Below are positions 1,519-20,392 of a DNA stretch of 64,000 nt, in pieces. Location: positions 2,807,501 to 2,871,500 of the forward strand of contig NZ_AP018795.1 of the NCBI RefSeq assembly GCF_003966655.1. The letters run 5' to 3'. The notes under the pieces were generated by a model. It saw nothing but the letters and a program-made list of their open reading frames with translations, was not told the DNA's origin and did not search any database. This DNA comes from Acidithiobacillus ferridurans. Lineage in GTDB: Bacteria > Pseudomonadota > Gammaproteobacteria > Acidithiobacillales > Acidithiobacillaceae. Both the position numbers and the translations under genes were made by a program. Every line of letters starts with the position of its first letter. The first letter of the stretch is position 1.

Positions 1519-1658
1519 TCTGAATAAAAATGCTGCCATCAGGCTGCCGTCTCCAGATCAAACGCAGTGAGCCGGTGCGTATCGACGTCCGTATAGTGGA
1601 CTTTGGAATTTGGCGGAATTTCTTACGCCATTTTAACCAGAGTTGATATAACCTCACG

Positions 1659-2417: not shown

Positions 2418-2464
2418 CAGCGAAAGCGCAGTTCGCATCGCATAAATCGCATCGCGTATTCGTG

Positions 2465-2538: not shown

Positions 2539-2639
2539 GATTATTGTAGGCGTCCCACCTAATCCCATGCGGTTTGTTGATAAGAACGGCATCGATAAAA
2601 AACAGTAGCTTAGTTGTTGTTCTTTTCCTGATTTATCCC

Positions 2640-2667
2640 TTGCAATCCCGCCCAAGCCCGCTATAAT
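2640..2667 (+). promoter_or_regulatory. integrase promoter
   Basis: TTGCAA at 2640-2645 and a consensus TATAAT at 2662-2667 are separated by 16 bp, 33 bp before the integrase ATG. The two TATCAAA repeats lie directly downstream, so the promoter may be autorepressed by integrase or an excisionase. Confidence 0.6.
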
Positions 2668-2668
2668 T

Positions 2669-2688
2669 CCTATCAAAGACTTATCAAA
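2669..2688 (+). repeat. TATCAAA direct repeats, left end (putative arm sites)
   Basis: CCTATCAAA (2669-2677) and CTTATCAAA (2680-2688) are spaced 11 bp apart, one helical turn. The same unit recurs three times inside the right attachment site (10555-10588). Matching repeats inside both ends of an integrated element are typical of arm-type sites for a tyrosine integrase or its directionality factor. Confidence 0.5.
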
Positions 2689-2699
2689 GGATTCAGGCT

Positions 2700-4037
2700 A
2701 TGGCGACCAAGACAGCACTCACCGACCGCGAAGTCAAAGCGGCTATCGCATCCGGGAAATCCGGCTGGTTGAATCAGAACATGGGCGCAGGCGAAGGCAG
2801 TCTATCGCTTCGATACTGGCCGACAGGGGCGACGTGGTATTACAGCTATAACGTGCGTGGCAAAACCCGCCGTATCGTCATCAAGCCCGATTCAGGAACC
2901 GCACAGTTGCTGACCTTGGCGCAGGCCAGAGCAAAGGCTCTTGAGCTCATCAAAGAGCGCCGCGATGCCCCAGGCGGCGACTTACTCTTGCACCAGAAAA
3001 TGCAGACCGAGGCCGCGCTACGTTCCAAGGCCGCTCACGAAGCAGAAGAACGTGCCCGCAGTCTCAGGACCGTTGAAAAGCTCCTGAACAATTACCTGGA
3101 TAACATGCGGGCGCGAGGAAAAATCAGCACAGGTTCCGTAGCCAATGAGTTCAATAACCTTCTGCGGGACTACCCGGCGCTTGCCGACCGCGATGCAGCC
3201 AGTGTAACGCCGCTTGAGTGGGTGGGCATCCTGCGGCGATATGGAAAAACGGACGGACACACCGATAAAATGCGGAAGCTACGTTCCTACCTTAGAAGTG
3301 CATACAGCACCGCGCTCCGTGCCGACCTGGACCCGCTACAGGACGCCAGTGCAGGCATGATGCTTACCACAAACCCGATTGACGGCATCCCGGCAGGCAC
3401 GTCCAGGGCGAGGGATCGCAACCTGAGCGAGCAGGAATTCAGGGCGCTGTGGGCACGGTTGAGGGCAGACAGCCACCCGTTATCTCTGGCCTTGCAAGCT
3501 CTGATTTTACTTGGCGGCCAGCGGTACACGCAGCTTATTCGGGCCACCGTGCGAGATTATCAAGATGGCGAGCTCACCTTGTACGATCCCAAAGGGAGAC
3601 GCGCCACGCCAAGGAAGCATGTATTACCCGTTCAGGGTATGGCTAAGGGGCTGCTGGATGAATTCGCCAACCGCTCTGCGCTTCTCGGTACGGACCTGCT
3701 GTTCACCATCACTGGTGCCGGCCCGGCGCTTCTCGATAGTGCCAGTCGCTACATCACGGATCTGAGCAAGGCAATGGTTGAGCGTGGCGAAGCGACCGAT
3801 ACGTTCCGTCTGAGCGATATACGCCGGAGCCTTGAAACCATCATGAGCGGCAAGCTCCGTATCAGCAAGGACGACCGGGCGCAGTTGATGAGTCATGGCG
3901 TATCTGGGGTGCAAGACAAGCATTATGACAAAAGTGCCCACATGGACGCCAAGGCGGAAGCTCTTGCCAAGCTGGAAAGGTGGCTGGTGCAAGATACTGC
4001 AATAGTCGTACCGCTCCGGGCTGGGGGTGCGGGATGA
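2700..4037 (+). CDS. int: tyrosine recombinase (P4-type integrase)
   Basis: This 445-residue integrase of the tRNA-Leu element would catalyse recombination between the 74-bp attachment repeats. The N-terminal part (about 15-95) looks like the arm-binding DUF4102-type domain, and the middle (about 115-215) is the SAM-like core-binding domain. The C-terminal catalytic domain shows R275 (GGQRYTQL), DIRR with R375, H399 (MSHG) and nucleophile Y409 (KHYDK). The usual first histidine of HxxR is replaced by S372. AAAGGA precedes the ATG by 8 bases. The gene sits beside the partial tRNA copy, not the intact tRNA, which is the less common arrangement for P4-type integrases. Confidence 0.92.
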   Translation: MATKTALTDREVKAAIASGKSGWLNQNMGAGEGSLSLRYWPTGATWYYSYNVRGKTRRIVIKPDSGTAQLLTLAQARAKALELIKERRDAPGGDLLLHQKMQTEAALRSKAAHEAEERARSLRTVEKLLNNYLDNMRARGKISTGSVANEFNNLLRDYPALADRDAASVTPLEWVGILRRYGKTDGHTDKMRKLRSYLRSAYSTALRADLDPLQDASAGMMLTTNPIDGIPAGTSRARDRNLSEQEFRALWARLRADSHPLSLALQALILLGGQRYTQLIRATVRDYQDGELTLYDPKGRRATPRKHVLPVQGMAKGLLDEFANRSALLGTDLLFTITGAGPALLDSASRYITDLSKAMVERGEATDTFRLSDIRRSLETIMSGKLRISKDDRAQLMSHGVSGVQDKHYDKSAHMDAKAEALAKLERWLVQDTAIVVPLRAGGAG

Positions 4038-4720
4038 CCGTCCAGGCGATGAATACCCGGCAATTCATTGATGTGGCCACAGATACCTACGTCAGAGGGC
4101 CAGAGCACCGGGCCTACGTGAACCGACGCGCAGACGTGTCAGCGCCCTTGGATGATTATCTGGACCAGCTCTGGGGACCGAGCTTTACGCCGCAAGAGGC
4201 CGATCTTTACAAGGCCGTACAGCAACAGCTTATTGACAACATCCTGTCAGGGGCCATCAAAACGTATGCGTGGCCTATGCTGGTGCCGGATATGCGCCCG
4301 ACCATCGAAACCATTGAAACGGATTCCAGCGTTATCCTTTTGGCGGACTTTCAGAAGTGGGTAAAGAAGAATAACCCCGCAGCGCGTGCGGATTGGCTAG
4401 ACCTGATTATGGACGCCACGCAACCTACCGGAGATCCGGTTCAGCCGGACAGCCCCGGCATGCCGGTGGTGCAGGTTCGCACGAAGAAGCCGCGCGGACC
4501 CGTTCCAAACGCAACAAAGAGCGCGGCTTATTTGGAAGGCGGCGAGAGGCTGGTGGCCGTGGCGCAGGAACTGGTGGACAGCGGCCAGAAGTTGACAGCC
4601 GAAACGCTAGGCAAAGCTCTTGAAAAAAAATACAGAGGCACAAAAGCGTCAATATGGAAGAGAGACTACGTAGCAGAAGCTACGATGGCATCAATAAAAA
4701 GCCAGACCACCCATGACTAA
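4034..4720 (+). CDS. hypothetical protein of the integrative element
   Basis: The 228-residue product is of unrecognised family. The chosen ATG overlaps the integrase stop as ATGA, implying translational coupling to int; an in-frame ATG further upstream lies inside int and is unlikely. The protein is soluble, with an acidic N-terminal half, a proline-rich hinge around residues 133-150 and a basic C-terminal region (RTKKPRGPVPN; about 155-228). The end of the protein looks helical and could bind DNA. An excisionase or replication accessory role would fit the position after int, but that is speculation. A hairpin terminator follows 64 bases downstream. Confidence 0.65.
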   Translation: MTVQAMNTRQFIDVATDTYVRGPEHRAYVNRRADVSAPLDDYLDQLWGPSFTPQEADLYKAVQQQLIDNILSGAIKTYAWPMLVPDMRPTIETIETDSSVILLADFQKWVKKNNPAARADWLDLIMDATQPTGDPVQPDSPGMPVVQVRTKKPRGPVPNATKSAAYLEGGERLVAVAQELVDSGQKLTAETLGKALEKKYRGTKASIWKRDYVAEATMASIKSQTTHD

Positions 4721-4783
4721 TTGTTACTGGTAATAGCTCAGCAACAATAGGTAACAGCTTTTCCATTCGCAGTGAAAACACGA

Positions 4784-4809
4784 AACCGGCCTAACCGCCG
4801 GATTTTTAT
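4784..4809 (+). terminator. rho-independent terminator after int operon
   Basis: CCGGC (4786-4790) pairs with GCCGG (4797-4801) across a 6-base loop and is followed by ATTTTTATT. It separates the int transcript from the alpA operon. Confidence 0.6.
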
Positions 4810-4860
4810 TGTCTTTAGTCCGGCATCAATAGAGCACGGAAGGGACATAACCGGACATTG

Positions 4861-4919
4861 TTGCACGACACAAAATAGGGGATAGATTGGGTATCGGTAT
4901 TCATTTAGAGGACCGATAC
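4861..4919 (+). promoter_or_regulatory. alpA-operon promoter and 8-bp inverted repeat over the ribosome site
   Basis: A plausible promoter is TTGCAC (4861-4866), 16 bp, TAGATT (4883-4888). Directly downstream, GTATCGGT (4891-4898) and ACCGATAC (4912-4919) form a perfect inverted repeat with a 13-base loop that contains the AGAGG ribosome site. ATG follows at 4922. It could be a repressor operator or an RNA hairpin presenting or hiding the ribosome site. Confidence 0.5.
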
Positions 4920-4921
4920 AC

Positions 4922-5107
4922 ATGAAAACAATTACCGAACAACGCGGGTTACGCGCCCAGGCAGCGGCGAAGTATTGCGGGCTGGGAAGATCAACTTTCT
5001 TGCGGTATGTCAGCGAGGGCAAAGCCCCGCAGCCCCGGAAGTTATCACCCGGCGCAGTTGTGTGGTTAAGGGATGAGCTTGATAAATGGCTGGAGGCGGC
5101 GGCATGA
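4922..5107 (+). CDS. alpA: AlpA-family helix-turn-helix regulator
   Basis: The product is 61 residues, the usual size for AlpA-type (PF05930) or MerR-like HTH regulators of prophages and satellites. The core AAAKYCGLGRSTFLRYV forms the helix-turn-helix, followed by KLSPGAVVWLRDELDKWL, the typical ending of the family. AlpA proteins activate integrase or excision genes in P4-like elements and PICIs. It is the first gene of an apparent operon that runs to about 10.28 kb; its stop overlaps the next start. A perfect 8-bp inverted repeat sits directly upstream, so autoregulation is likely but unproven. Confidence 0.85.
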   Translation: MKTITEQRGLRAQAAAKYCGLGRSTFLRYVSEGKAPQPRKLSPGAVVWLRDELDKWLEAAA

Positions 5108-5310
5108 GCGCCGCCCAAAAGAAAACCGGGGCGGGCACCCCGGCGGCACACAGCAACACACTCGCACAGAAGCATACCAGCCCACGCGGTCGCCGTGCAA
5201 TTTTCCATCTCTGGACAGCGAGCAGGGCAGTCCAACACGCTGCACTCACCGCCGACGACCTGGCGCTGATCCGGGAAGCCCTGGCCGAAATTGCGGGGGT
5301 GCTGGGATGA
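5104..5310 (+). CDS. small hypothetical protein of the element
   Basis: This 68-residue protein starts at an ATG overlapping the alpA stop (ATGA) and its own stop overlaps the primase start in the same way. It has a basic, Ala/Gly-rich first half and a helical end (ALTADDLALIREALAEIAG). No family is recognised. The perfect 4-bp overlaps on both sides are the main evidence that it is translated. Confidence 0.6.
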   Translation: MSAAQKKTGAGTPAAHSNTLAQKHTSPRGRRAIFHLWTASRAVQHAALTADDLALIREALAEIAGVLG

Positions 5311-6188
5311 CCCCTACCAACGAAGTGTTAAGCGATATGGCCGCATGTGGCCTGACGCCAAGCAAGCCGGACACAATCGAGTTCGATACTCCCGGCATCG
5401 TTCGCTACCACGTCCAGGGCGATAAACCCGGAACCCGCAACGGTTATTGGCGTGGGTTCAGCGATGGCCGACCTGCTGGCATTTTCGGAAGCTGGAAAAC
5501 CGGCCAGACGCATCACTGGGTACATGGCGCGTCCACTGCCACCGATGCCGACCGCGAGCGCATACGGGCCATTCAGCGCGAACGTGAACAGGAACAGGAA
5601 GCCCGCCATGCGGCAGCCTCAGCCAAGGCTATCAGTATATGGGCCGATGCAGCGCCAGCGGACCCAGCGCATCCGTATTTGCAGCGCAAGGGCGTTGCGC
5701 CCGGTATTGCCCGCCAGCGTGGAGACATGCTGATTCTGCCTATCGTGGATTTTCCGGGGCCCTTACGCGGGATCCAGACCATAAGTCCTACAGGTGAAAA
5801 ACGCTTTACCAAAGGGATGCACAAGCAAGGCGGTTTTATTCCAGTAAATGGGAAGAAGCCGGAGCCGGGAAAGCGGCTGCTGATATGTGAAGGCTGGGCC
5901 ACTGGTCAGAGCTTGGCAGCACTCTCGCCGGAGGCCGTGGTCCTCGCTGCGCTGGACTGCGGAAACCTTCAGGCCGTGGCAGTCGAAGCCCGCCGCCGAT
6001 TCCCCCAGATTGATTTGGTTGTCGCTGCGGACGCTGACGAAATCGGGATGGCGAAGGCAAAAGCCGCCGCCGTTGCCAGCCATGCGAAATGGATCTGGCC
6101 GAGGTTCCCGAAGGATGCACCAGAAGGACTCAGCGACTTCAACGACTGGTCGGTATGGCGGAAATCTCAGGGGGTGGCGCATGTTTGA
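5307..6188 (+). CDS. Toprim-domain primase-like protein
   Basis: This 293-residue protein would synthesise primers for replication of the element. The N-terminal 75 residues contain GYWRGFSDGRPAG and FGSWKTG, seen in phage and plasmid primases. A charged helical linker (about 80-115) follows. The Toprim_3 domain runs from about 150 to 275, with LLICEGWATGQSLAAL (catalytic Glu), ALDCGNLQAVA and VVAADADEIG (acidic DxD metal site). No CHC2 zinc ribbon is visible. It overlaps the following ATPase gene by 8 bp. Together the pair would equal the primase-helicase split over two genes, as in many PICI-like elements, where P4 has one fused alpha protein. Confidence 0.82.
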   Translation: MTPTNEVLSDMAACGLTPSKPDTIEFDTPGIVRYHVQGDKPGTRNGYWRGFSDGRPAGIFGSWKTGQTHHWVHGASTATDADRERIRAIQREREQEQEARHAAASAKAISIWADAAPADPAHPYLQRKGVAPGIARQRGDMLILPIVDFPGPLRGIQTISPTGEKRFTKGMHKQGGFIPVNGKKPEPGKRLLICEGWATGQSLAALSPEAVVLAALDCGNLQAVAVEARRRFPQIDLVVAADADEIGMAKAKAAAVASHAKWIWPRFPKDAPEGLSDFNDWSVWRKSQGVAHV

Positions 6189-8145
6189 CGATTCCGAAGA
6201 TTGGACGCAAAACATACCGCCCTATGGCGATGACTTCGAGCCGCCGGCGCCGCACCGGTCAGTTGTCCCTGATCCTGTCGCTGGTGCTGAAGACCTGCCG
6301 GAGCCGGAGGCGCCAGTGGATTCAACGACGGTTGCAATGGCCGAGCTTCTAGCCATCGCCCAAGCGGGAGACGCGCCAGCATTCTGGAGATCGCTCAAGC
6401 CCCATGCCGCGACGTTGAAATCGCTCATGGATAACGATCCCGGCGAATACCAGGCTTGGCGCGCAGAGATTAAATCAGCGTGCAGCAAGATCAATGTGGG
6501 GACACTGGACAAATTTATTAGCCCCTCCGGTGGCGACGGCGACGGCAGCCAAGCCACTGAGCTGGCGGATTTGGCCGCATCCCGTTGTGAACTCTGGCAT
6601 GATGGAGATGGTAACGGTTTTGCCAGTTTGGAACGCGACGGGCACCGCGAACATTGGCGCGTTGACTCCACCGGCTTCCGGGATTGGTTGTCCTGGCTGG
6701 CTCATTCTGAGATGGGCACGGCACCATCAGCGGAGACCGTAAAAAGCGCCTGCAATGCTCTCGCCGGTCAAGCCAAGTTTGACGGTGACGAGCACGAACC
6801 TCGGCGGCGGGTCGGCAAAGACTCCTCCGGGTACTGGCTGGATGTTGGAGATGACCAATGGCGGGCGATTCTGATAACCGCGACCGGCTGGCGCATCATG
6901 AACGATCCGCCCGTACGATTCATCCGAACCAAGGCCACCAGGGCGCTTCCCGAGCCGGTATCTGGTGGCAGCGTTGACGTGCTCTGGAATCTGGTGAACG
7001 TGCCGAAGCAGGAAAGACTGCTGGTGCTGACGTGGATCCTCGAGTGCTTCCGGCCAGATACCCCCTACGCCCTGCTGGAACTCACCGGGGAACAAGGCGC
7101 GGCGAAGTCCACAGCACAGCGCACATTCCGGCGCTTCGTTGACCCTAACCAAGTGGAGCTACGCGGGAAACCAAAAACAGTTGAGGATATCTACGTCAGC
7201 GCCAGCAACTCCCACTTGCTCAGTTACGAAAATCTCAGCGGATTGTCGAACGACCAGTCCGACGCGCTTTGCACCTGCTGCACGGGTGGAGGTTACGCGG
7301 CGAGACAGCTTTATACGAATGGGGAAGAATCTACGCTCACGGCGCATTGCCCTGTGGCGCTGAACGGCATTTCCCCGGTCGTGCTCCGCCCCGATCTGCT
7401 GGATCGCGCAGTCTCTATAACCCTGCCCGAGATCATGGTACGAAGAACTGACGACGAGATCAGTACGGCCACCGAAGCGGCGGCACCTGGAATCATGGGT
7501 GCTCTGTTGACGCTGTTCAGCGAAGCCTTAGCCATCCTGCCTTCGGTAAACATCCCCCCTGAACAGCGGCCACGCATGGCGGATTTTGCAACGTTGGGTG
7601 AAGCCATCGCCCGAGTGCAGGGATACACGGAAGGCCACTTCCTCGCTCTCTACACCGATCACCGACGCACCGCGATAGGCCGGACGATTGATGCAAGCCC
7701 CGTAGCGGCGGCGATGGTGGCCTATGTGGATCGCGGCAATCGGTACGTGGGCACCGTCAAGGGATTGCTGGAAATACTCACCGAGCACAAGCCGGATCAC
7801 GAACGAGACGAATACTGGCCGCGCAGCCCAAAAGGGCTTGCGGATGCCATGCGGCGATATGCCCCGGCGCTTCGTCAAATGGGGATCATCGCCCGCGTGG
7901 ACAACACCCGGCGGAAGGATGGGGTTCATTGTGTACTTCACGTACAGGCACCGGACTATTCTCCCCAGCCCCAAGTACCGGGAAATGAAGTTCACCAAGT
8001 TCACCAAGTTCACCCATCCCAGAAACCGGAACCCCAAACAGTGGAAACCTGCCCCCAATGCGGCGGCTCAGGTTGCCCGTTGTGCTGGGATACAGATGAT
8101 GATCCCGCTGCCGGCGCTGATGATTTAGTGGACGGTGAAATATGA
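6181..8145 (+). CDS. P-loop replication ATPase/helicase-like protein with C-terminal zinc ribbon
   Basis: This 654-residue protein starts at the ATG overlapping the primase end. A Walker A motif, GEQGAAKST, lies near residue 303, with LLSYENLSG some 45 residues later as a probable Walker B. The following segment with VALNGISPVVLRPDLLDRA resembles sensor and arginine-finger regions of SF3/D5-like or related AAA+ replication helicases. The last 40 residues carry CPQCGGSGCPLC, a likely zinc ribbon. It is probably the replicative helicase or initiator of the element. The 3' part of the gene contains three 9-bp GTTCACC repeats, which force the peptide repeat VHQVHQVH and look like origin iterons. 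Confidence 0.78.
   Translation: MFDDSEDWTQNIPPYGDDFEPPAPHRSVVPDPVAGAEDLPEPEAPVDSTTVAMAELLAIAQAGDAPAFWRSLKPHAATLKSLMDNDPGEYQAWRAEIKSACSKINVGTLDKFISPSGGDGDGSQATELADLAASRCELWHDGDGNGFASLERDGHREHWRVDSTGFRDWLSWLAHSEMGTAPSAETVKSACNALAGQAKFDGDEHEPRRRVGKDSSGYWLDVGDDQWRAILITATGWRIMNDPPVRFIRTKATRALPEPVSGGSVDVLWNLVNVPKQERLLVLTWILECFRPDTPYALLELTGEQGAAKSTAQRTFRRFVDPNQVELRGKPKTVEDIYVSASNSHLLSYENLSGLSNDQSDALCTCCTGGGYAARQLYTNGEESTLTAHCPVALNGISPVVLRPDLLDRAVSITLPEIMVRRTDDEISTATEAAAPGIMGALLTLFSEALAILPSVNIPPEQRPRMADFATLGEAIARVQGYTEGHFLALYTDHRRTAIGRTIDASPVAAAMVAYVDRGNRYVGTVKGLLEILTEHKPDHERDEYWPRSPKGLADAMRRYAPALRQMGIIARVDNTRRKDGVHCVLHVQAPDYSPQPQVPGNEVHQVHQVHPSQKPEPQTVETCPQCGGSGCPLCWDTDDDPAAGADDLVDGEI
7990..8016 (+). 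repeat. iteron cluster A (3 x GTTCACC, 9-bp period)
   Basis: GTTCACCAA, GTTCACCAA and GTTCACCCA lie end to end inside the ATPase gene. The 9-bp period keeps the reading frame and yields a VHQ repeat. The core matches the type I iteron of phage P4 as I remember it (TGTTCACC), the binding site of the P4 alpha initiator. Confidence 0.6.
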
Positions 8146-8789
8146 GCGCGAAAAAGCTGCTGATCGAGATCACGAAGGCGGGCGGCACCATCGCCGCCGA
8201 GGGGGACAAGCTCAAGTTTCAGGGCATCCCCGCCCGGCTGGTCCACATTATCAAGCAAAACAAGGCTGAATTACTGGCTGAACTGCAAAAGGTGAACGTG
8301 GTGAACATGGTGAACATTGATTCCGGCTACTTGCCCCCGGCAAGAATAGTCTGTGACGCGGAACCGATGTTCACCCCGCTTCCGTCTGATCAATGCGTGG
8401 ACGATTACGCAATGGCCGAACGCCTGGCGATTCAGGCCGAGTCATCCCTTGGCGAAGATCCCGGCGATGTTCCCGGCTTCGCTGACATGACTGAACTCAC
8501 CCCGGAACAACATGGCGCCATCCTCCACCGTCTCATGAATGCGGCACCGGCCATGAGCACCACTGATACCACCCCAGCCGATACGATGCAGCCAACGCCA
8601 GCTATGGCCCCTCAGCGGGTATCCTGTGGGCAATGCTGCCGCTTCCAACCTGGACCGCAACCGCTATCCATTGGCCGATGTTTGGCGACCGTGGACGGGC
8701 AACCGCCAGCCGGGAATCGTGGAGACTACCGAGCGGCTTTTCCAACGGCACCGCGTCAGTGCCCTGAGTTTTCGGGGGTGCAATCATGA
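8142..8789 (+). CDS. hypothetical protein with TubC-N-like domain and Cys-rich C-terminus
   Basis: The 215-residue protein overlaps the ATPase stop by ATGA. Residues about 4-48 (LLIEITKAGGTIAAEGDKLKF, cut short here) have the layout of a TubC N-terminal docking-like domain: a helix, a GxxL/I beta hairpin, then the helix HIIKQNKAELLAEL. Such domains are common at the start of phage and plasmid genes of unknown role. The C-terminal 60 residues have CGQCCRFQPG with further cysteines (RCLAT, QCPEF), perhaps a zinc site. The 5' part of the gene carries the second iteron cluster, encoding VNVVNMVN. Function unknown. Confidence 0.65.
   Translation: MSAKKLLIEITKAGGTIAAEGDKLKFQGIPARLVHIIKQNKAELLAELQKVNVVNMVNIDSGYLPPARIVCDAEPMFTPLPSDQCVDDYAMAERLAIQAESSLGEDPGDVPGFADMTELTPEQHGAILHRLMNAAPAMSTTDTTPADTMQPTPAMAPQRVSCGQCCRFQPGPQPLSIGRCLATVDGQPPAGNRGDYRAAFPTAPRQCPEFSGVQS
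8291..8375 (-). repeat. iteron cluster B (inverted GTTCACC repeats) plus one outlier
   Basis: GGTGAACGT, GGTGAACAT and GGTGAACAT (8291-8317) are three end-to-end 9-bp units, the reverse complement of the cluster at 7990-8016, so the two clusters face each other 275 bp apart. A further exact TGTTCACC lies at 8368-8375 on the plus strand. Facing iteron clusters are expected of an iteron-controlled origin. Confidence 0.6.
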
Positions 8790-9235
8790 TTTGTGAGGCC
8801 AGCCACCTTTTCAGGAGAACGAATGCCGTTGTCCACTCGCTGAGGCGCGCGCTGGACGTACTGGGCTGCCGCCTGCCCAGAGAGGCCGTTATCCATCTGC
8901 CGTACTGCTGGCATAACGTCCCAAACACCACCGACATGGTACTGCTGAATCGGGAATACCGGCCCATTGGCGTTGCTGGCGATTGGGTGAATTATGCCGA
9001 TCATCCCGAACTCATGGCCCCGCGCCACATGGTTCATTCCGACTACCTGACCGCCGCAGTGCCCAGCCACACATTAAAGGATGTGGCCTTGCGTACCATG
9101 TTCTGCAACCCCGGCCCCGATCCGCGCCGCTGGTTTTTCAACGATGCCACCGACCCACGACGCGGCAAGAAATATCGGCAACGGCTGGCGGATTTGATAG
9201 AGAACAATCTCAACGCTCTGGAGGAGCTGCAATGA
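8786..9235 (+). CDS. hypothetical protein of the element
   Basis: The 149-residue soluble protein is coupled to both neighbours by 4-bp ATGA overlaps. It begins MICEASHLFRRTNAVVH and ends with a helical LADLIENNLNALEELQ. It is rich in His, Trp, Tyr and Arg in the middle (YCWHNVPNTTDMVLLNREYRPIG, cut here to the motif YCWHN and LNREYRP). No catalytic signature or family is recognised. Its conserved place between replication genes and the packaging-like genes suggests an element function. Confidence 0.62.
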   Translation: MICEASHLFRRTNAVVHSLRRALDVLGCRLPREAVIHLPYCWHNVPNTTDMVLLNREYRPIGVAGDWVNYADHPELMAPRHMVHSDYLTAAVPSHTLKDVALRTMFCNPGPDPRRWFFNDATDPRRGKKYRQRLADLIENNLNALEELQ

Positions 9236-9666
9236 ACGCCCAGCAAGCCCCCATACAGCCCCTACAGCGCACGCAATCAGCCGAGGTGCTACCCAAATGC
9301 AACGCAAAGGAGAAAACAGCCATGAATGACGACGACGAGCACAGCAAAATAGTGCCGATTGCTGGAAATCGGAAGCCACCAAACGCCGGCATGGGTAGGC
9401 GCAAGGGTGTCCCGAACCGAACTACGGCCAGTCTGAAGAATATGATTACGGGTGCGCTTGATGAGCTTGGCGGGCAAGCGTGGCTTGTCGAGCAGGCGCG
9501 TCAAGATCCGCGTGCATTTATGGCGTTACTGTCACGCCTTATCCCTTCCGAAATTAAAGCAGAGGTAAGTGTAAATGAACTCAGTGAATCCGAACGACTA
9601 CAGCGCTTTAATGCCTTACTTGAGCGAGCCAGAACGCGCAGAGATGGAGGCTCTACTGGCGGCTGA
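9232..9666 (+). CDS. DUF5681-like / small-terminase-like DNA-binding protein
   Basis: Two starts are possible. ATG 9232 overlaps the upstream stop (144 residues); ATG 9322 has a strong AAAGGAG site and gives 114 residues. The conserved part is GMGRRKGVPNRTTASLKN followed by a helical region ending in ALLSRLIPSEIKAEV. This is the pattern of phage proteins usually found just before the large terminase (GRxKGxxNKxT, then a GG...A...P.AF..LL..LiP motif). Satellites commonly encode a small terminase to redirect packaging, so this is a candidate for that role. Assignment is from pattern recognition only. The 3' end overlaps the next gene by 92 bp. Confidence 0.6.
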   Translation: MNAQQAPIQPLQRTQSAEVLPKCNAKEKTAMNDDDEHSKIVPIAGNRKPPNAGMGRRKGVPNRTTASLKNMITGALDELGGQAWLVEQARQDPRAFMALLSRLIPSEIKAEVSVNELSESERLQRFNALLERARTRRDGGSTGG

Positions 9667-9859
9667 GCCTGAACCGGTAGAGATTGTCTTTAGCGTTATT
9701 CGCCCCGACCTGAGCGTCCAGGCGCACCTGCTGAGAGAGCCGGGCGGGGGGCTACGGGAACTCAGCACCGACGAGATCGCTACTCGTGGCCTGCCCGCGC
9801 CGACGCCGGAAGTGAACGGCGGTTTTCGACGTGGTGACTTTTGCGAAACAATCCCATGA
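9575..9859 (+). CDS. small protein with terminase-large-like N-terminus
   Basis: The 94-residue frame starts inside the preceding gene. Its first 30 residues (NDYSALMPYLSEPERAEMEA) look like the extreme N-terminus of a class of phage large terminases that begin with a LLPYLTPEERAELxALL-type helix. The ATPase and nuclease domains are absent, so it is either a relic or an independent small protein. The rest (VFSVIRPDLSVQAHLLREPG and onward) is unrecognised. Its stop overlaps the next ATG by 4 bp, which favours real translation. Confidence 0.5.
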   Translation: MNSVNPNDYSALMPYLSEPERAEMEALLAAEPEPVEIVFSVIRPDLSVQAHLLREPGGGLRELSTDEIATRGLPAPTPEVNGGFRRGDFCETIP

Positions 9860-10278
9860 AGCCGACATATTGCGGCGCTAAAACTCGCGCAGGCACCCCA
9901 TGCCGCCGTTACCCGATAACAGGCCGGAAACGCTGCAAGTTGCATGGCGGTACTAATCCCGGCCCCGGTTACGGCAATCAAAACGCCAAGACCCACGGTA
10001 TTTACGCATCACGCTGGACGCCAGAGGATCATGAGCGTGCCGGTGAATCCCAGAAGCTGATCGGCACCCTGGATACTGAAATAGAACTGGTACGGGTGCG
10101 GATTGCCCGCATCCTGGATACCGAGGCGTCTGGCGGATACCCAGATGCTGCTTTTCATACGCTGCTGGATCGTTACGTGGGACGGCTCTGCACACTGGAA
10201 ACGCAACGCAACGCCTTGAATGACGGCGGCCCAACTGAACAAATCATCACCATTCGCGGCGGCTTTCCCGGAACCTGA
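9856..10278 (+). CDS. HGG-motif phage-associated protein
   Basis: This 140-residue protein starts at the ATG overlapping the preceding stop. Its N-terminus has CGAKTRAGTPCRRYPITGRK, then CKLHGGTNPGP and NAKTHGIYA. This is the HGGxxxG Cys/His pattern of small proteins frequently encoded beside phage terminase genes, where three cysteines and a histidine probably bind zinc. The C-terminal half is helical. Together with the two preceding genes it gives the element a packaging-region flavour. No structural gene of a virion is present. Confidence 0.65.
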   Translation: MKPTYCGAKTRAGTPCRRYPITGRKRCKLHGGTNPGPGYGNQNAKTHGIYASRWTPEDHERAGESQKLIGTLDTEIELVRVRIARILDTEASGGYPDAAFHTLLDRYVGRLCTLETQRNALNDGGPTEQIITIRGGFPGT

Positions 10279-10319
10279 CACCATATTACCGCACTGAACT
10301 AGGGCTTGAATTACGTGAA

Positions 10320-10541
10320 ATGCTCGCAGCCCAGGCGAAGGCGCGACAGGCAACCAGCACAGGAGGAGCCGCACCCCAGCATAAGGCAAATTTGCCGGAA
10401 GCTGCTAAGGGAGAAACCCGCGATGCCATTGCCGAACCACCGGAACGCCTGGACCCGCACACCGCCGACCCTATCGCCCCCGGCCGCACCATGCCGGATC
10501 TTCAGATGCAGGGGTTATTCTTTGGGTGGGGCTGTCTATAA
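10320..10541 (+). CDS. possible small protein at the right end of the element
   Basis: The frame encodes 73 residues from ATG 10320 (MLAAQAKARQATS) and has no good ribosome site. The same frame is open upstream to 10239 and would read RNLTPYYRTELGLELREM before the ATG, which looks protein-like. The gene may therefore have lost its start or be a decayed tail of something longer. No family is recognised. Confidence 0.3.
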   Translation: MLAAQAKARQATSTGGAAPQHKANLPEAAKGETRDAIAEPPERLDPHTADPIAPGRTMPDLQMQGLFFGWGCL

Positions 10542-10554
10542 GCGCACCCTAATA

Positions 10555-10588
10555 CCTATCAAAATCCTATCAAAACCGACTTATCAAG
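10555..10588 (+). repeat. TATCAAA direct repeats, right end
   Basis: CCTATCAAAA (10555-10564), CCTATCAAAA (10566-10575) and CTTATCAAG (10580-10588) repeat the motif found between the left attachment site and int. They lie 27 bp inside the right repeat. They are probable integrase arm or excisionase sites. Confidence 0.5.
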
Positions 10589-10614
10589 GATTTCGTCATG
10601 ATGGGGAAAATGCC

Positions 10615-10688
10615 TAACCAATTGGTTTATAAGATGGTGCCCAGGGCCGGACTCGAACCGGCACGGCATAAGCCGAGGGATTTTAAGT
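10615..10688. repeat. attR: attachment site repeat within intact tRNA-Leu
   Basis: Identical over 74 bp to 2465-2538. The copy covers the tRNA-Leu from the anticodon loop to the CCA end and 20 bases beyond. Identity ends in the anticodon arm, where strand exchange by tRNA-targeting integrases commonly occurs. Confidence 0.93.
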
Positions 10689-10719
10689 CCCTTGCGTCTA
10701 CCGATTTCGCCACCTGGGC
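10635..10719 (-). tRNA. tRNA-Leu(UAA)
   Basis: The 85-base cloverleaf reads GCCCAGG at the 5' end and CCTGGGC-A-CCA at the 3' end, which pair perfectly. The anticodon arm is AGGGA-CTTAAAA-TCCCT, giving anticodon TAA. A class II variable arm and the GGTTCGAGTCC T-arm are present, and CCA is encoded. The 3' 54 bases are duplicated at the far end of the integrative element, so this gene is the integration target and stays intact. Confidence 0.95.
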
Positions 10720-10892
10720 ATGACTGCGGCAACAGAAAGCAGAATTTGCCTGCTCCCCGTCCCCCTCCGTCCGGGAACCGGAAGGATAGCACAGCCCCAG
10801 CGGCTTGGGCAGAGTTTAGTGCTGACATTTGGCGCGTAACCGATTGGCAGTTTAACGGGTTCTGCATTCTGGGCGGATGAGTTACCTCATCC

Positions 10893-11032
10893 TCACCGCA
10901 GGCCCAATCGCCGTTTCTGCCACAGGGTGTAGAGGGTCGGGATCACCAGCAGTGCCTGCAACGCGGCGCTGAACGTGCCACCCACCATGGGGGCGGCGAC
11001 GCGCTTCATCACATCGGCACCGGCACCATTGC
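10893..11032 (-). pseudogene. C-terminal remnant of a cusA-like RND gene
   Basis: The minus strand encodes GAGADVMKRVAAPMVGGTF and LYTLWQKRRLGLR, nearly identical to the last 44 residues of the intact CusA at 14560-17670. The nucleotide match runs from the stop (10893) to about 11032 and then ends abruptly. The rest of the gene is missing. It is either a leftover of a second copper-efflux operon or of a recombination between two copies. Confidence 0.85.
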
Positions 11033-11220
11033 TTACGTTACGGGAGCAGGTAATGGTGTCGTAAACATTGTCTACCCCTGTCCACAAGACGTTGCGGCCT
11101 TTGGTCTGACGCTTTGTTTGGCGTAATGGCTACGCCTGGGGGTGGTGGAGACCGTGAACCAGTCTCTCTCTTGCTCAGATGGCGAAAGACGTAACAACCA
11201 GACACCTTACGAGAGGTCTT
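11033..11220. other. unassigned region between cusA remnant and EexN-like gene
   Basis: No gene, RNA or clear transposon end was recognised in these 188 bases. The abrupt loss of cusA homology at about 11032 suggests a recombination junction. Confidence 0.3.
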
Positions 11221-13535: not shown

Positions 13536-13615
13536 GGCGAACTCTCCTGTATTGATTCAGATAAATTTAGTAGAAATCCAGTGGATGATATAATTCGATT
13601 CTGCTCGTCTATCCA

Positions 13616-14534
13616 TCACTCATTCCTGGGTTTCGTGTCATCTCCGTTATTTGAAGTAATGTCGTCCAGCCCTTCCGTCCCGCTGCTCAGGTCCGCCTGG
13701 ACACTGAACGCAACGTCCCAATCGGCATGAAGGGCTTGGTGTTCCGACTCGGTGAATCCCTTGTGGCCGTGGATCATGGCCGATACCAAGCCGTGGCGGC
13801 CCGCGATCTCGTGCGCGATCACCAGCGCCACATGGACCATGACGAAGGCAAGCAGCAGAAAGAAACCCCATTCATGTACCGTCATGAGGGGGGAGGTCAT
13901 TGCCTCACTATCGCTCATGAGCGAGAGGGTGATCCCCAAGATCACCTGCGCCGCGGCAATGACAAAAAAGGCGAGATAGGCGGGGCCGGCGAAAGCGTTA
14001 TGCCCCCGATAGGGGGAAATCGGGCGGCGGAAGCCGCTCAGATAGCAGGCGAGGGTTTCCCGCCAGATGCGGCGCTGGGCTATCGCTCATGAGCGAGAGG
14101 GTGATCCCCAAGATCACCTGCGCCGCGGCAATGACAAAAAAGGCGAGATAGGCGGGGCCGGCGAAAGCGTTATGCCCCCGATAGGGGGAAATCGGGCGGC
14201 GGAAGCCGCTCAGATAGCAGGCGAGGGTTTCCCGCCAGATGCGGCGCTGGGCTGACGTCAGGGGCAGGAGGTCGCGCCAACGCGCCGTCGGCGGGCCGAC
14301 AAAGAGCCAGATGATGCGCAGCGCTAGCCCAGCGGCAAAAGCATAGCCGCCGTAATCGTGGACGATGTCGATCTTTTCCATCAGAGCGGCGGACATGTCA
14401 TCACCCAGGGTCAGGAGAGTCGCCCCGGAGGTGAATTGCGCCATGATGGTAAGCGCCAGCCACCAATGCAGGGTCCGCAGCAGCGGGTCCCAGACGGGGT
14501 GCAGGATATAACGTGTGTCCGTTGTTGATGCCAT
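13616..14534 (-). pseudogene. cytochrome b561-type membrane protein, frameshifted by 172-bp duplication
   Basis: The N-terminal frame (13998-14534) begins MASTTDTRYILHPVWD and carries HWWLALTIMAQF, HDYGGYAFAAGLALRIIW and further helices of a cytochrome b/b6 (PF01292) heme-binding integral protein. The C-terminal frame (13616-13945) continues with MTVHEWGFFLLLAFVMVHV and VIAHEIAGRHG. The two are separated only because 13909-14080 is repeated exactly at 14081-14252. Removing one copy leaves 747 bases, a single frame of 248 residues with histidines on four helices. The protein would pass electrons within the membrane. AGGAGAAG lies before the start. It follows cusA by 25 bp. Confidence 0.85.
13909..14252. 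repeat. exact 172-bp tandem duplication
   Basis: 13909-14080 and 14081-14252 are identical, with one or two extra ambiguous bases at the edges. Since 172 is not a multiple of three, the copy shifts the cytochrome b frame. Perfect identity implies a recent event, a reversible switch or an assembly error. Confidence 0.95.
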
Positions 14535-14559
14535 TGCCTTCTCCTGGTCTGTACCGTCT

Positions 14560-17500
14560 TCACCGCAGGCCCAATCGCCGTTTCTGCCACAGGGCGTAGA
14601 GGGCGGGGATCACCAGCAGTGCAAGCAACGCGGCGCTGAACATGCCGCCCACCATGGGGGCGGCGATGCGCTTCATCACATCAGCACCGGCACCATGGCT
14701 GAACATAATGGGCAAGAGTCCGCCTACCACCAGGGTAAAGGTCATGGCCAACGGCCGCAGGCGCAGCATGGTCCCCTCGATGACGGCAAGCTGAAGGTCA
14801 TGCCAACTCTGCAAGGTGTCGCGGGCCTGCCGCCGGAGAAGGGCCTGATCCAGGTAGAGGAGCATCACCACCCCGAATTCCACCGCCACCCCCGCGAGGG
14901 CGATGAAGCCCACGGCCACGGCCACCGAGAGCTTGTAGCCGAGCCAGTAGATGAGCCAGAAGCCGCCCACCAGGGACAAGGGCAAGGTAAGCAGGATGAT
15001 GGCCACCTCCACCCAGTTCTTGAAGTTGAAGTAGAGGAGCAGGGCGATCAGCAGAATGACGGCGGGGATCACCAACTCCAGGCGTTTGGCGGCCTGCTCC
15101 ATGACCTGATACTGGCCTACCCAGGAGAGGGTATAACCTCCTGGAAGGTCGACGGCCTTCGCAATCGCAGCTTTGGCGCGGGGCACATAAGCACCGATGT
15201 TGGTGCCGGGCTGTAGGTCAATGTAGATCCAACTGTTCAGCCGACTGTTGTCGCTAGTGAGCATGGCTGGCCCTCCCTCGATGCGGAGGTCGGCCACCTG
15301 GGCCAAAGGGATCTGGGCGCCGTCGGGAGCGGCGATGCGGCTTTCCATCAGGGTGGCCAGGGACTGGCGCAGTTCCCGGGGGTAACGGAGATCCACCGGG
15401 AAGCGCTCCAGCCCTTGCACCGCAGTGGTCAGGATCTCGCCACCGATCGCCGTCTCCACCAGACGGTTCACATCCGCCACCGAAAGACCGTAGCGGGCGG
15501 CCTTGGCGCGGTCGGTGTGAATGACGATGTAGCGGCCGCCGGTGACCCGGGCCGCATAGGCGCTTTGGGTGCCGGGGACCTTCCGCAAAACCGTTTGGAG
15601 CTCCTGCCCCAGGCGGTTCAGGGTGTCGAGATCCGTTCCGGCCACCTTGATGCCTAACGGCGTCTGGAGACCGGTGGTCAGCATATCCACCCGCCCCTTG
15701 AGCGGCTGTGTCCAGATATTCGACAGGCCGGGGATATTCAGGGCTTCAGTCATCTTGCTTTGCAGCCTGTGCAAGGTCATCCCGGCTGGCCACTGGTCGG
15801 GATTCTTCAAATTCACCACCGTATCGAACATGGACAGGGGCGATTGATCCGTCGCTGTCTGGGCCCTTCCCGCCTCACCGAAGACCGTTTCCACCTCGGG
15901 GAAGGTCTTGAGGATGCGGTCCGTCTGCTGCAGGAGCATGGCCGCCTGGCCGATGGAGACCGCCGGGTCCTGGGTGACGGGCATGTAAAGCAGCGTCCCC
16001 TCGTCCAGGGGCGGCATGAACTCCGAGCCCAGGCGATTCCAGGGATAATAAAGGGTGGCCGTGAGCAGCAGAGCGATGATCAGCATGAACCAGGGAGCGC
16101 GCAAAACACCGCGGATCACGGGTCGGTAAAGGAAAGCCAAGGCCCGGTTCAGGGGATTTTTGTTTTCGGGGAGGATGCGTCCGCGGATGAACCAGGCCAT
16201 GAGGATGGGCACCAGGGTTACCGAGAGTATGGCGGCGGCGGCCACGGAAAATGTCTTGGTGAAGGCGAGTGGTGCGAAGAGCTTGCCTTCCTCGCCGCCC
16301 AGGGCGAAGACCGGCAGGAAGGAAACGGCGATAATGATCAGCGAGAAGAACAGGGCCGGACCGACCTCCTCCGCCGCCGCCATGGCCACCGCCCAGGGGT
16401 CGGCGCCGGACTCCCTTTCGAGATGCTTGTGCATATTCTCGATCATGACCACGGGGGCATCCATCATCACGCCGATGGCGATGGCGATACCACCCAGGGA
16501 CATGATGTTGGCGGGGATCCCCAGAGACCACATGATGAAAAAGGCGGCCAGTATCCCCAGCGGCAGGGCGATGAGCGCCACCAGCGCCGAACGTGCACGC
16601 AGCAGAAAGAGCAGGGAGATGAGCGCCACCGCCAGGGATTCTTCCAGCAACTTGCCGGTCAGGGTATGGATACTGCGCTGGATGAGCGGAGCCTGGCTAT
16701 AGGTCGTGACGACCTGCACCCCCTTGGGTAGGGAAGGCTGGATTTCCTTCAGCTTGCGCTCGATCTGGTGGATGAGGGCGTAGGCGTTGCCGCCCTGGTT
16801 CATCATGACGATCCCGCCCACCACCTGTCCGTGGCCGTTGAGCTCGGCGATCCCGTTGGGCAACTGCGGCCCCAACTGCACACGGGCTACCTCCCGCAGT
16901 GTAATGGGCACGCCGTTGCGCACCCCCAGCGAAGCATCCTCCAGGTCTTTCAGGGAATGGATGTAACCCGAGGTACGGACGATATAACTCGCTTCCCCCA
17001 TATCCACCACCGAGCCGCTGGTCTCCCCGTTCGCGGCGCGGATGGCGGCCTCCACCTCCGGCAGGGTCAGGTTGTAGGCGAGGAGTTTCTGGGGGTTCAC
17101 CACCACTTGGTATTCCTGCACCATCCCCCCCACCGTAGCTACCTCCGCGACGCCGGAGATGCCTTGCAGTTCGTACTTGAGGAACCAGTTCTGCAAGGTG
17201 GTGAGTTGGGCTAGATTCAAAGTTCCGCTGGGATCGGTGAGGGCATACTCGAAGATCCAGTCCACCCCTGAACTGTTGGGGCCAAGGGCCGGCGTGATCC
17301 CCGGCGGCAGCTTGGACTGCACCTGGCTCAGGTATTGGAGTACCAGATTACGGGCCTGATAGATGCTGGTGCCACCCTTGAAGAGGACGTAGACATAGGA
17401 GTCCCCGAACATCGAGTAGCCGCGCACGGCCTGGGCACCGGGCACCTCCTGCAGGGTGGTCTCCAGGGGATAGGTCACCTGATCCTGAACGATCTGCGGA

Positions 17501-17670
17501 GCCTGGCCCGGATAGGAGGTCTTGATGATGACCTGGGTGGGCGAGATGTCGGGGATGGCCTCCAGGGGAATATTGATCACCGCCAGCGTACCGGCGACGC
17601 TCAACACCAAGACAGCGATCATGACCAGCAAGCGGTTTTCCATACACCAACGCATGATCGCCCTAATCAT
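14560..17670 (-). CDS. cusA: CusA-type Cu(I)/Ag(I) RND efflux pump
   Basis: This is a full-length (1036 residues) heavy-metal RND transporter that exports Cu(I) or Ag(I) across the envelope, driven by protons. The three methionines that bind metal in E. coli CusA are conserved as M563 (LLYMPVT), M614 (PLSMFDT) and M663 (RVDMLTT). The proton-relay acid D404 lies in VMMDAPVVMIEN, where the family signature is found. Twelve membrane helices and two large periplasmic loops are in the expected places. Its start overlaps the cusB stop by 4 bp. A near-identical 3' fragment lies at 10893-11032. Confidence 0.95.
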   Translation of the reverse strand: MIRAIMRWCMENRLLVMIAVLVLSVAGTLAVINIPLEAIPDISPTQVIIKTSYPGQAPQIVQDQVTYPLETTLQEVPGAQAVRGYSMFGDSYVYVLFKGGTSIYQARNLVLQYLSQVQSKLPPGITPALGPNSSGVDWIFEYALTDPSGTLNLAQLTTLQNWFLKYELQGISGVAEVATVGGMVQEYQVVVNPQKLLAYNLTLPEVEAAIRAANGETSGSVVDMGEASYIVRTSGYIHSLKDLEDASLGVRNGVPITLREVARVQLGPQLPNGIAELNGHGQVVGGIVMMNQGGNAYALIHQIERKLKEIQPSLPKGVQVVTTYSQAPLIQRSIHTLTGKLLEESLAVALISLLFLLRARSALVALIALPLGILAAFFIMWSLGIPANIMSLGGIAIAIGVMMDAPVVMIENMHKHLERESGADPWAVAMAAAEEVGPALFFSLIIIAVSFLPVFALGGEEGKLFAPLAFTKTFSVAAAAILSVTLVPILMAWFIRGRILPENKNPLNRALAFLYRPVIRGVLRAPWFMLIIALLLTATLYYPWNRLGSEFMPPLDEGTLLYMPVTQDPAVSIGQAAMLLQQTDRILKTFPEVETVFGEAGRAQTATDQSPLSMFDTVVNLKNPDQWPAGMTLHRLQSKMTEALNIPGLSNIWTQPLKGRVDMLTTGLQTPLGIKVAGTDLDTLNRLGQELQTVLRKVPGTQSAYAARVTGGRYIVIHTDRAKAARYGLSVADVNRLVETAIGGEILTTAVQGLERFPVDLRYPRELRQSLATLMESRIAAPDGAQIPLAQVADLRIEGGPAMLTSDNSRLNSWIYIDLQPGTNIGAYVPRAKAAIAKAVDLPGGYTLSWVGQYQVMEQAAKRLELVIPAVILLIALLLYFNFKNWVEVAIILLTLPLSLVGGFWLIYWLGYKLSVAVAVGFIALAGVAVEFGVVMLLYLDQALLRRQARDTLQSWHDLQLAVIEGTMLRLRPLAMTFTLVVGGLLPIMFSHGAGADVMKRIAAPMVGGMFSAALLALLVIPALYALWQKRRLGLR

Positions 17671-19112
17671 GGGATTGACCTCCCTGGCCCCTTGTTCATT
17701 CCGGGCGTGGTACCCGGGCCGGACGAGGTCGGGGGCGTCGGTGGGGCGCCTGCATCCCCGTCGGGAGCGGCCGGCGCCGGGGATTCCCGGCCCTGAGTCA
17801 GACCACTGTTCTGCGACCGGGAACGTCCACTGCCCGGCATGGCACTCGTGGTGGGCGCCGTGTTGCCACCCAGCATGCGGGCCTTGACCGACTGGAACTG
17901 GGATTCGGAATAGAGCAGGAACTGGGCGCTCTCCACCACCCGGTCGCCCACCTTGAGTCCCTTGTCGATGGCTACCCAGCCGTCGGTTTCCGGCCCTAGG
18001 GCGACCTGTACCGGCAGGAAGTGCCCTTGGCCCTCACCCATCATCACGTAATCTCCCTGAGCAGTACGCAGTACGGCGCTGCTGGGCACCGCCAGGGTCT
18101 CCTTGGGGCTGGCTAAAATAGTGGCGGTGGCGTAGGTGCCGGGGCGCAACTCTCCGCCAGGATTGGGAAAGCTCAGCCGTGCCGTCACCGTCCGGTTTTT
18201 GGCGTCGAGGGTCGGATAGAGAAAGTTCAGACGTCCTTCCCAGGCCTTGCCGGGATAAGCCGGTAGATGCAGGCGCACGGGGTTGCCGATCCGTATCCAG
18301 GGCAATTGGTAGGAGTAGAGCGCTACATTGACCCATACCCGGTCGAGATTGGCGATTGCATAGATATTCGTCTGGGGCGAGACGTAACCACCTTGGCGCA
18401 CGTCGAGGCTCTCGACCACCCCGGAAGCAGGCGCCAGGAGTGGCACGTCCCGTTGCGCCGTCCCGCGCTGGGCCAGGGCCGCGATCTCGCCTTCCGGCAT
18501 GCCCAGCAGTCGCAATTTCGCCTTGGCTGCCGCCAGCAGAGCCGAGTCTTCCGTCGTTCCGCCCTGGCGGCGGGCAATGAGATATTCCTGTTGGGCGCTA
18601 TACAGCTCGGGAGAATAAATCTCGGCGAGTACCTGTCCGCGCCGCACGGGGTCACCGACGGCGCGGACATTCAAGCGTGTCACCCAGCCGGAGAAGCGCG
18701 GATTGACGGAATAGACGCGGTTCTCGTCCACTGCCACGGTGCCCACGGTGTGGATGGCCTGACCCATCGGACGGCGCTGGACATCCACGAGACGCACTCC
18801 CAGGTTTTGGGCTAGGCGCGGATCGATGCTGAGGCCGGACGCCTTGGGCGCGTTCGGACTGGAGGCATAGACCGGGAGATACGCCATCCCCATGCTGTCC
18901 TTCATTGGGTGATCCGAATGAATCTTGGGGTTCATGGGGGCGGCCCAGTAGAGGATATGCCGTCCCTTTGGCGTGCCTTCCTGAGAATGGGTTGCGGTGG
19001 AGTTGGCACTCGGTGCCGCGGCAGGGACTCGCAGCCACCACACCGCGCCAGCCCCCAGACCTACACCAATGCCCAGCAGGCCCATGCCGATGATCCAGTT
19101 GCGTGCCTTCAT
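17667..19112 (-). CDS. cusB: CusB-type periplasmic adaptor (membrane fusion protein)
   Basis: The 481-residue adaptor links CusA to the outer-membrane channel. The N-terminus has one membrane anchor or signal (GVGLGAGAVWWL). Next comes a Met/His-rich stretch, YWAAPMNPKIHSDHP then MKDSMGMAYLPVY, a degenerate heavy-metal-binding domain that could hold Cu(I). The barrel-sandwich and beta-barrel parts follow (GWVTRLNVRAVGD, LLAPASGVVESLDVRQGG). The last 70 residues form an unusual Pro/Gly/Ser-rich tail without homology in typical CusB. It overlaps both neighbours by 4 bp. Confidence 0.92.
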   Translation of the reverse strand: MKARNWIIGMGLLGIGVGLGAGAVWWLRVPAAAPSANSTATHSQEGTPKGRHILYWAAPMNPKIHSDHPMKDSMGMAYLPVYASSPNAPKASGLSIDPRLAQNLGVRLVDVQRRPMGQAIHTVGTVAVDENRVYSVNPRFSGWVTRLNVRAVGDPVRRGQVLAEIYSPELYSAQQEYLIARRQGGTTEDSALLAAAKAKLRLLGMPEGEIAALAQRGTAQRDVPLLAPASGVVESLDVRQGGYVSPQTNIYAIANLDRVWVNVALYSYQLPWIRIGNPVRLHLPAYPGKAWEGRLNFLYPTLDAKNRTVTARLSFPNPGGELRPGTYATATILASPKETLAVPSSAVLRTAQGDYVMMGEGQGHFLPVQVALGPETDGWVAIDKGLKVGDRVVESAQFLLYSESQFQSVKARMLGGNTAPTTSAMPGSGRSRSQNSGLTQGRESPAPAAPDGDAGAPPTPPTSSGPGTTPGMNKGPGRSIP

Positions 19113-20392
19113 GGTTGCGTTGCTCCTTGGGTGGTGAGGAAATCCAGCTCTGCGGCGCTGAGGTCCAGGTCGCGGCGGTATTGCAGGCGGGTCAGAGCAT
19201 AGTCCAGCACTTCTTTCTGGGTGCGCAGCACCGCGCTCAGTTCGGCACGTCCCGCCGCGTAGGCGGCGAGCGTCGCGGAAAAGGCATTCCGGGCGGTGGG
19301 AAGCAGTTGCCGCTCGGTGCGCTCCAACTGGGCCTTGAGGGCTTCATAACGGGCAAAGGTGGCGCGCGCCTGCTGGGTCAAGGCAAGGTGCTGATCGTCA
19401 TAGCGATATTGCGCCTGCAAGGCCTTGGCCCGGGCGGCGGCGACGTCCTGGTCCTGGCGATCGCCCGGGAATATGGGCAGGCTCAGGTTGACCCCCGCTG
19501 ACAGCCAGTTGGGGCTGCCGGGGTAGAAATCCTGGCCATAATCGACGCTGACCGTGACTTCCGGCCAATAGCCACGCTTGGCCACCTGCACGCCAATTTG
19601 CGCGGCTCGCGTTTGCGCCTGGGCGGAACGCAGGAGGGGTTGGCCGGAAAGCCGGGCTTCCGCTTGGGCAAGAGTGGGCGGGGGTGGCAGGTTCGGCCAT
19701 TGCTTTTCTATGGACGGCGGTTCCGGCAGATCCAGGATCTGCGCGATTTGTGCCAGATCGCTTGCCCGCTCTGCCTGCAATTTGCTGATATCATTGGCCA
19801 AGCTGTCACGCGCCAGTTGGGCGCGGAGTACATCGGCCTGAGATCCCTGCGCGGAGCGATAGAGTGCCAGCGCCGCTTGCACGCTTTCTGCCTGCAACTG
19901 CTCCTGATGCCGGACCGTTGCTACCGCATCTTCGGCATAGAGGGCTTGCAGCCAGGCGCGGCGCAGCAATAACACCAACTCGGCAGACTGGCCGCGCAGG
20001 GTGTCGGCGGCCGCCTGCGCCTCCACCCCCGCCTGCTGCCCTTCCAGCCCCAGTTTGCCAAAGGAGGGAAAAGTCTGGCTCAGGCCCACGCTCAACATGC
20101 TCATCTGCTGTTGGTTCATGGAGAAGTTGTTGAGGGGTGCGTTGACCACACCGAGGGCGAGGTGCGGATCGGGGAGTTGGGCTACCGCCACCGCTTGGTG
20201 CTGCAATTCCGCGATCTTTTGGGTCAGGGCGCCGAGACCGGGATTTTGCCGCAGGGCGATCGCCTCTGCGCTCTGCAGGCTCAATGGGGCGGCCCCGGCA
20301 GTCGTTGCCGACAGGAGCAACAGCACCCCAGCCAAGAGGCGGCTACTGCCCGGTGCCGGTGGGGTAAAACGACCAAGAATATTGGTATCCAT
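19109..20392 (-). CDS. cusC: CusC/TolC-type outer-membrane efflux protein
   Basis: The 427-residue protein starts at ATG 20392, six T residues after GGAGA; a TTG 18 bases earlier is less likely. A signal peptide (LLAGVLLLLSATTAGAAP) precedes two repeats of the outer-membrane efflux protein family, rich in Ala/Gln/Leu coiled-coil helices (ALRQNPGLGALTQKIAELQ, then RRDLDLSAAELDFL at the end). It forms the exit duct of the CusCBA complex. It is the first of three coupled genes, and a 72-bp gap separates it from the small Cys/His-rich gene upstream. Confidence 0.9.
   Translation of the reverse strand: MDTNILGRFTPPAPGSSRLLAGVLLLLSATTAGAAPLSLQSAEAIALRQNPGLGALTQKIAELQHQAVAVAQLPDPHLALGVVNAPLNNFSMNQQQMSMLSVGLSQTFPSFGKLGLEGQQAGVEAQAAADTLRGQSAELVLLLRRAWLQALYAEDAVATVRHQEQLQAESVQAALALYRSAQGSQADVLRAQLARDSLANDISKLQAERASDLAQIAQILDLPEPPSIEKQWPNLPPPPTLAQAEARLSGQPLLRSAQAQTRAAQIGVQVAKRGYWPEVTVSVDYGQDFYPGSPNWLSAGVNLSLPIFPGDRQDQDVAAARAKALQAQYRYDDQHLALTQQARATFARYEALKAQLERTERQLLPTARNAFSATLAAYAAGRAELSAVLRTQKEVLDYALTRLQYRRDLDLSAAELDFLTTQGATQP

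Follow-up and report, generated by a model that had tools for sequence, protein, structure and literature searches.

Clusters of the cusCBA-hyaC-cusF type are already known in Acidithiobacillus, and the published account places them for example in A. ferrivorans SS3 (Acife_0498-0502), where a figure legend on the cus cluster names cb561, cytochrome b561 (PMC7463520). One cus operon of the A. ferridurans genome studied here has the same gene order, cusC-cusB-cusA-cytochrome b561-cusF. A further cus operon of this genome lies within the window, a term used here for the whole stretch of 64,000 nucleotides that was analysed; it aligns with operons of this kind at 86–98% and carries cusC, cusB and cusA in order. 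It differs from them in having a broken cytochrome gene and in having no cusF. The original prediction, made on this locus, was that an exact 172-bp tandem duplication breaks a cytochrome b gene just downstream of cusCBA, and that the perfect identity of the two copies means that the event is very recent, that the repeat acts as a reversible switch or that the assembly is wrong.

Reversible tandem duplications have reportedly been described in pneumococcal capsule genes (cap3A) by Waite et al. in 2001 and 2003. A paper that cites Waite et al. 2001, 2003 ties the capsule-gene duplications to reversion in the passage that deals with them (PMC4022640). These duplications resemble the present one in that a perfect direct tandem repeat within one frame inactivates the gene and in that a precise reversion is conceivable. 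However, the A. ferridurans gene has an intact paralog, and for this gene reversion, a mixed population and a selected phenotype would be conjecture. A second comparison is offered by tandem repeats of 101 bp in E. coli, comparable in size to the present unit, for which frequent RecA-independent deletion involving template switching is described (PMC8378479). The replication misalignment there is of the type proposed below for the A. ferridurans duplication and would also be the expected path of reversion; the difference is that the E. coli system concerns deletion between repeats that already exist, whereas here a repeat would have been formed for the first time from 2 bp of homology.

The duplicated segment and the broken cytochrome gene

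A repeat search of the window returned an exact tandem duplication with a unit of 172 nt and 100% identity between the two copies, and TRF reported the same period over 13908-14253, with 100% matches and 0 indels. At the junction there is a 2-bp CT overlap which is assignable to either side and, given this slack, the span 13909-14252 put forward in the original prediction is an equally valid phase of the same repeat. The affected gene lies on the minus strand and starts at 14534. A unit of 172 nt is not divisible by three, so that the gene is read out of frame beyond the unit encountered first; the first frame has 178 codons in place of 248, with its stop at 13998, and the remainder of the cytochrome protein is encoded in the other frame. 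The further claim that removing one copy would give back a single frame of 248 residues also stands: the two open pieces (151 codons, 14534-14080, and 153 codons, 14077-13616) overlap exactly inside the duplicated part, and the window segments align with no gaps to the 747-nt, 248-codon gene of the paralog. The coordinates of the features are collected in the table.

Features of the cus locus, in positions of the window
Feature	Position	Strand	Remarks
Deletion scar	13599..13604		about 530 bp absent from the window; cusF there in the genome's own paralog operon
C-terminal remnant frame, 109 aa from GTG	13616..13945	-	PF01292 positions 133-179
Duplication unit 1	13908..14079	-	distal in gene direction; carries the frame continuing to the C-terminus
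Left palindrome, 14 bp, perfect	13911..13924, repeated 14083-14096		3 bases inside the left breakpoint
Truncated cytochrome b561 ORF, 178 aa	13998..14534	-	151 in-frame residues, then 27 from the junction on
Duplication unit 2	14080..14251	-	nearer to the start codon; same sequence as unit 1
Right palindrome, 10 bp, perfect	14252..14261		at the right breakpoint
cusA, 1036 aa	14560..17670	-	CusA/CzcA family; above the TIGR00914 cut-off
cusB, 481 aa	17667..19112	-	above the RND_mfp cut-off, below the CusB cut-off
cusC, 433 aa	19109..20410	-	TolC family; TolC-family match below cut-off only

An insertion element with its target-site duplication was considered as the cause and rejected, as the copies follow each other directly in the same orientation, no sequence intervening, and the repeat unit is the gene's own sequence, just as it is found in relatives.

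The intact paralog belongs to the prokaryotic cytochrome b561 family (PF01292), which it matches over positions 1-179 with 85.5 bits. For the window ORF the match is confined to positions 1-123 of 179, contributed by the in-frame residues (57.8 bits, above the cut-off of 30.1), and the C-terminal remnant reaches 26.9 bits, below the same cut-off. A full-length domain match exceeding the curated cut-off was not obtained for the window copy, and on these matches it is the broken gene of a PF01292 family member, in which the frameshift removes the last part of the membrane domain. It appears extremely improbable that a function is retained by the truncated protein of 178 residues or by its N-terminal and C-terminal fragments acting as a split pair. 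Both fragments are indeed open frames and both match PF01292, but the first one stops at position 123 of the domain, the second one scores below the family cut-off and has no ribosome-binding site before its GTG that could be seen by eye, and a single open frame is kept across the region in all ten other copies compared. Loss of the window cytochrome, with its function supplied by the paralog operon, is the most likely consequence.

The exact identity of the two copies is also the expected product of an untrimmed overlap, for instance one left at the closure of the circular contig, and an error of assembly or finishing was one of the options of the original prediction. We consider it very improbable. 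The genome of A. ferridurans JCM 18981T (AP018795), a single contig of 2,921,399 bp, was obtained from PacBio RS II data only, with a mean subread length of 9,497 bp at 283x and assembly by HGAP (PMC6256440), and, judging from these published statistics, such subreads span the 344-bp array. The two ends of the record show no leftover overlap. Moreover, coordinate 1 is not at dnaA (found at 1,430,244), which suggests that the record was not rotated to this usual place, and it is some 100 kb distant from the duplication; a closing join at the duplication is therefore unlikely. A scan for tandem repeats with periods of 12-3000 over the window and 23 stretches of 20 kb (524 kb, 18% of the chromosome) listed four further repeats, every one of period 12, and none other of period 13-3000 that is exact in these 524,000 bases, which speaks against an assembly prone to such errors. 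Being the sole exact tandem repeat of period 13-3000 in the sampled bases, the duplication is not a chance occurrence. Elsewhere in the chromosome, a near-tandem repeat of period 341 and 93.5% identity was observed (L061:9176). The finding is real and correctly described, and most likely an ordinary tandem-duplication mutation.

Operon context and comparison with relatives

The position ascribed to the gene is also confirmed, the minus-strand genes cusC, cusB and cusA directly preceding the cytochrome. Some 300 bp from the duplication, at the deletion scar, the window operon has no cusF. The sequence of about 530 bp that is absent there is present in the genome's own paralog operon, where it includes a CusF gene (PF11604), and in G003, G004 and G006, and only about 120 bp are found in G002; the comparison comprises the own paralog and these four genomes, the far flank at this site in G012 and G014 having failed to align. 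The genome has only one CusF match (C1:7363-7578), outside the window and beside the intact cytochrome paralog (C1:7841-8587, or L034:7841-8587), which is in turn the only other match to this cytochrome in the genome. On the circular chromosome, about 108 kb separate this second, complete cus operon from the window operon. As cusF is missing as well, the operon tail would appear to be decaying. However, the short segment of G002 at the same place means that the absence is not specific to the window, and the loss of cusF need not be linked to the duplication.

A number of other features of these operons were observed. Downstream of cusF in the paralog operon there is a DDE transposase ORF (L034:5781-7103), which breaks the alignment with the window at that point. 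An AIM24-family gene stands between cytochrome b561 and cusA in G006 (L073:17235-17984) and in the A. caldus SM-1 megaplasmid; in both operons of the A. ferridurans genome the two genes adjoin directly, with no AIM24-family gene. About 3.5 kb downstream of the operon cusA, what is left of the 3' end of a second cusA occupies 10890-11033 of the window; it shares 92% identity with the 3' end of the operon gene and is a trace of an older cus copy. An integrative element of about 8.2 kb (2465-10688) occupies tRNA-Leu(taa) (10635-10719, minus strand); its ends are marked by a 74-bp identical direct repeat (2465-2538 and 10615-10688), and within it lie two ORFs, one of 445 aa (2700-4037) that has an arm DNA-binding domain of the integrase type and one (5073-6188) that has a Toprim domain.

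The search of the genus covered 17 genomes, of which 9, the window genome counted, have a match to the region; G007 and G013, with short matches of no more than 123 bp, were left out, and in six other genomes the gene spans the duplicated segment, always as a single copy. A scan of GTDB contigs gave eight loci, including L037 (the same as G003), L039 (G004), L040 (G002), L042 (G014) and L043 (G012), together with two new ones, L038 from A. sulfuriphilus and L041 from Acidithiobacillus sp. YTS05; L044, which covers 78 residues and sits at the end of a contig, was excluded from the comparison. The seven GTDB loci retained, together with G006, the own paralog and the A. caldus plasmid, make up ten other copies, and each of them is single-copy and stop-free over the matched part, which in L041, L042 and L043 amounts to 240-245 of the 248 residues. 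The plasmid copy comes from the one record that matched in the plasmid search, the A. caldus SM-1 megaplasmid, which has the gene in single copy, and a search of viral contigs with the junction sequence gave 0 matches.

Against nine of these copies (all but the plasmid copy), the pieces of the window gene show 81-90% identity. When the window operon (13599-20300) is compared with the A. ferrooxidans-like G006, identity falls from 97.8% in cusB-cusC to 94.7% in cusA and 88.6% in the cytochrome, which suggests that the window operon is a recombinant mosaic. Over 744 nt, the DNA of the genome's paralog gene does not differ from that of a gene in A. ferriphilus (L037), and this identity suggests that the operon type to which it belongs moved between species recently.

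Age of the event and reversibility

The two copies differ at 0 of 172 positions, which places their divergence below 1.7% (95%), and the gene has diverged by 10-19% from its relatives. These figures support a duplication that is younger than the splits from the relatives compared, unless the copies correct each other. To this extent the very recent event of the original prediction holds, but the words very recent are only loosely bounded by a divergence of less than 1.7%. Two A. ferridurans strains have an ANIb of 98.65% (PMC7098893), and the duplication could be as old as the divergence of strains within this species; the perfect identity of the copies dates the event weakly. The duplication is possibly confined to this strain. 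As for selection, dN/dS computed pairwise between each of the two pieces and the relatives lies at 0.25-0.49, which overlaps the range of the intact relatives among themselves (up to 0.45), and, the duplication aside, the broken gene is open in either frame, with no further stop. From these two observations the cytochrome remained under constraint until late, and its loss was late as well.

A distinct scenario is that of a reversible on/off switch, in which slippage or RecA would remove one copy precisely and so restore the cytochrome at high frequency, the culture would be mixed and copper stress would select the state. The pneumococcal capsule-gene duplications provide a precedent, the frequent RecA-independent deletion described for E. 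coli repeats also favours it, and for a repeat of this kind reversion by slippage is physically likely and thus to be expected. Nothing, however, shows a regulated switch. Recurrence in relatives, by which phase variation can be recognized, was not found, the duplication occurring in 0 of the 10 other copies, none of which is from another A. ferridurans strain; nor does any of these ten contain an exact direct repeat longer than 10 bp that could predispose to duplication. In addition, an intact paralog is present, cusF is missing beside the broken cytochrome, and the published assembly holds one state only. We regard a switch as quite improbable, and this option of the original prediction was not substantiated.

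Breakpoint palindromes and the origin of the duplication

The breakpoints of the duplication are associated with two perfect palindromes (table). Among the 7 other copies in the alignment, 5 have the right one, which is one base off in G002 and G012, whereas the left one is private, being perfect in the window only among the eight sequences tested and absent from all 7 others; judging from this distribution, the right palindrome is the older of the two. Palindromes of at least 14 and at least 10 bp at both breakpoints were equalled by 17 of 200,000 random site pairs (8.5e-5, the statistic being post hoc). As single-stranded DNA, the right palindrome has no stable fold (-0.1 kcal/mol), and for the left one the gain in folding over shuffled sequences is only modest (z of -1.23 and -1.45 for the two strands). 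The link between palindromes and duplication is suggestive only.

The codon that completes the left palindrome is AGC in the window and CCG in all ten other copies, a change of three adjacent bases in one arm. Quasi-palindrome template switches leave a signature of clustered changes in one arm, which complete its complementarity with the other arm. Private, clustered changes completing one arm are what is found here, though they may be due to chance: the 6.6 kb aligned contain 26 runs of at least three adjacent substitutions. Such runs are no rarity at a locus as diverged as this one, and the private three-base change may have nothing to do with the duplication. That one complex template switch both rewrote the palindrome arm and made the duplication, the repeat now serving as a reversible switch of the cytochrome, is hardly credible.

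The microhomology at the junction was rejected as evidence of slippage, as at least 2 bp are found in a fraction of 0.16 of random 172-bp junctions, a value which includes 0.003 falling inside the duplication itself. For RecA, a homology of two bases is insufficient, and slippage or template switching is therefore left as the route. We consider it highly probable that the duplication arose by spontaneous RecA-independent slippage as a loss-of-function mutation in the tail of a redundant, decaying cus operon. In such an event the nascent strand would slip back by about 172 bases during replication, through a template switch or misalignment, and the segment would be copied twice; the polymerase or a folded strand could stall at the breakpoint palindromes, and the left palindrome may have been completed by a template switch of the quasi-palindrome type, possibly in the same event as the duplication. 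The cell would tolerate the loss through its second complete operon, and the tail, with its cytochrome broken and cusF also missing, would be in the course of decay. This account presumes that slippage was the mechanism, that the loss is tolerated because of redundancy and that the events took this order; the paralog is taken to be redundant with the window cytochrome, and at 84-85% protein identity it could act differently.

For users of this genome, the cytochrome and cusF are to be treated as lost in the window operon. The breakpoints offer a readable case of possible palindrome-linked slippage and, should the repeat turn out to be unstable in culture, tandem-repeat deletion in Acidithiobacillus could be followed with it as a convenient natural reporter. 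For the biology of the organism, the locus would provide a clean example of a redundant copper-resistance operon that is decaying in an acidophile with another such operon, whose type occurs in more than one species.
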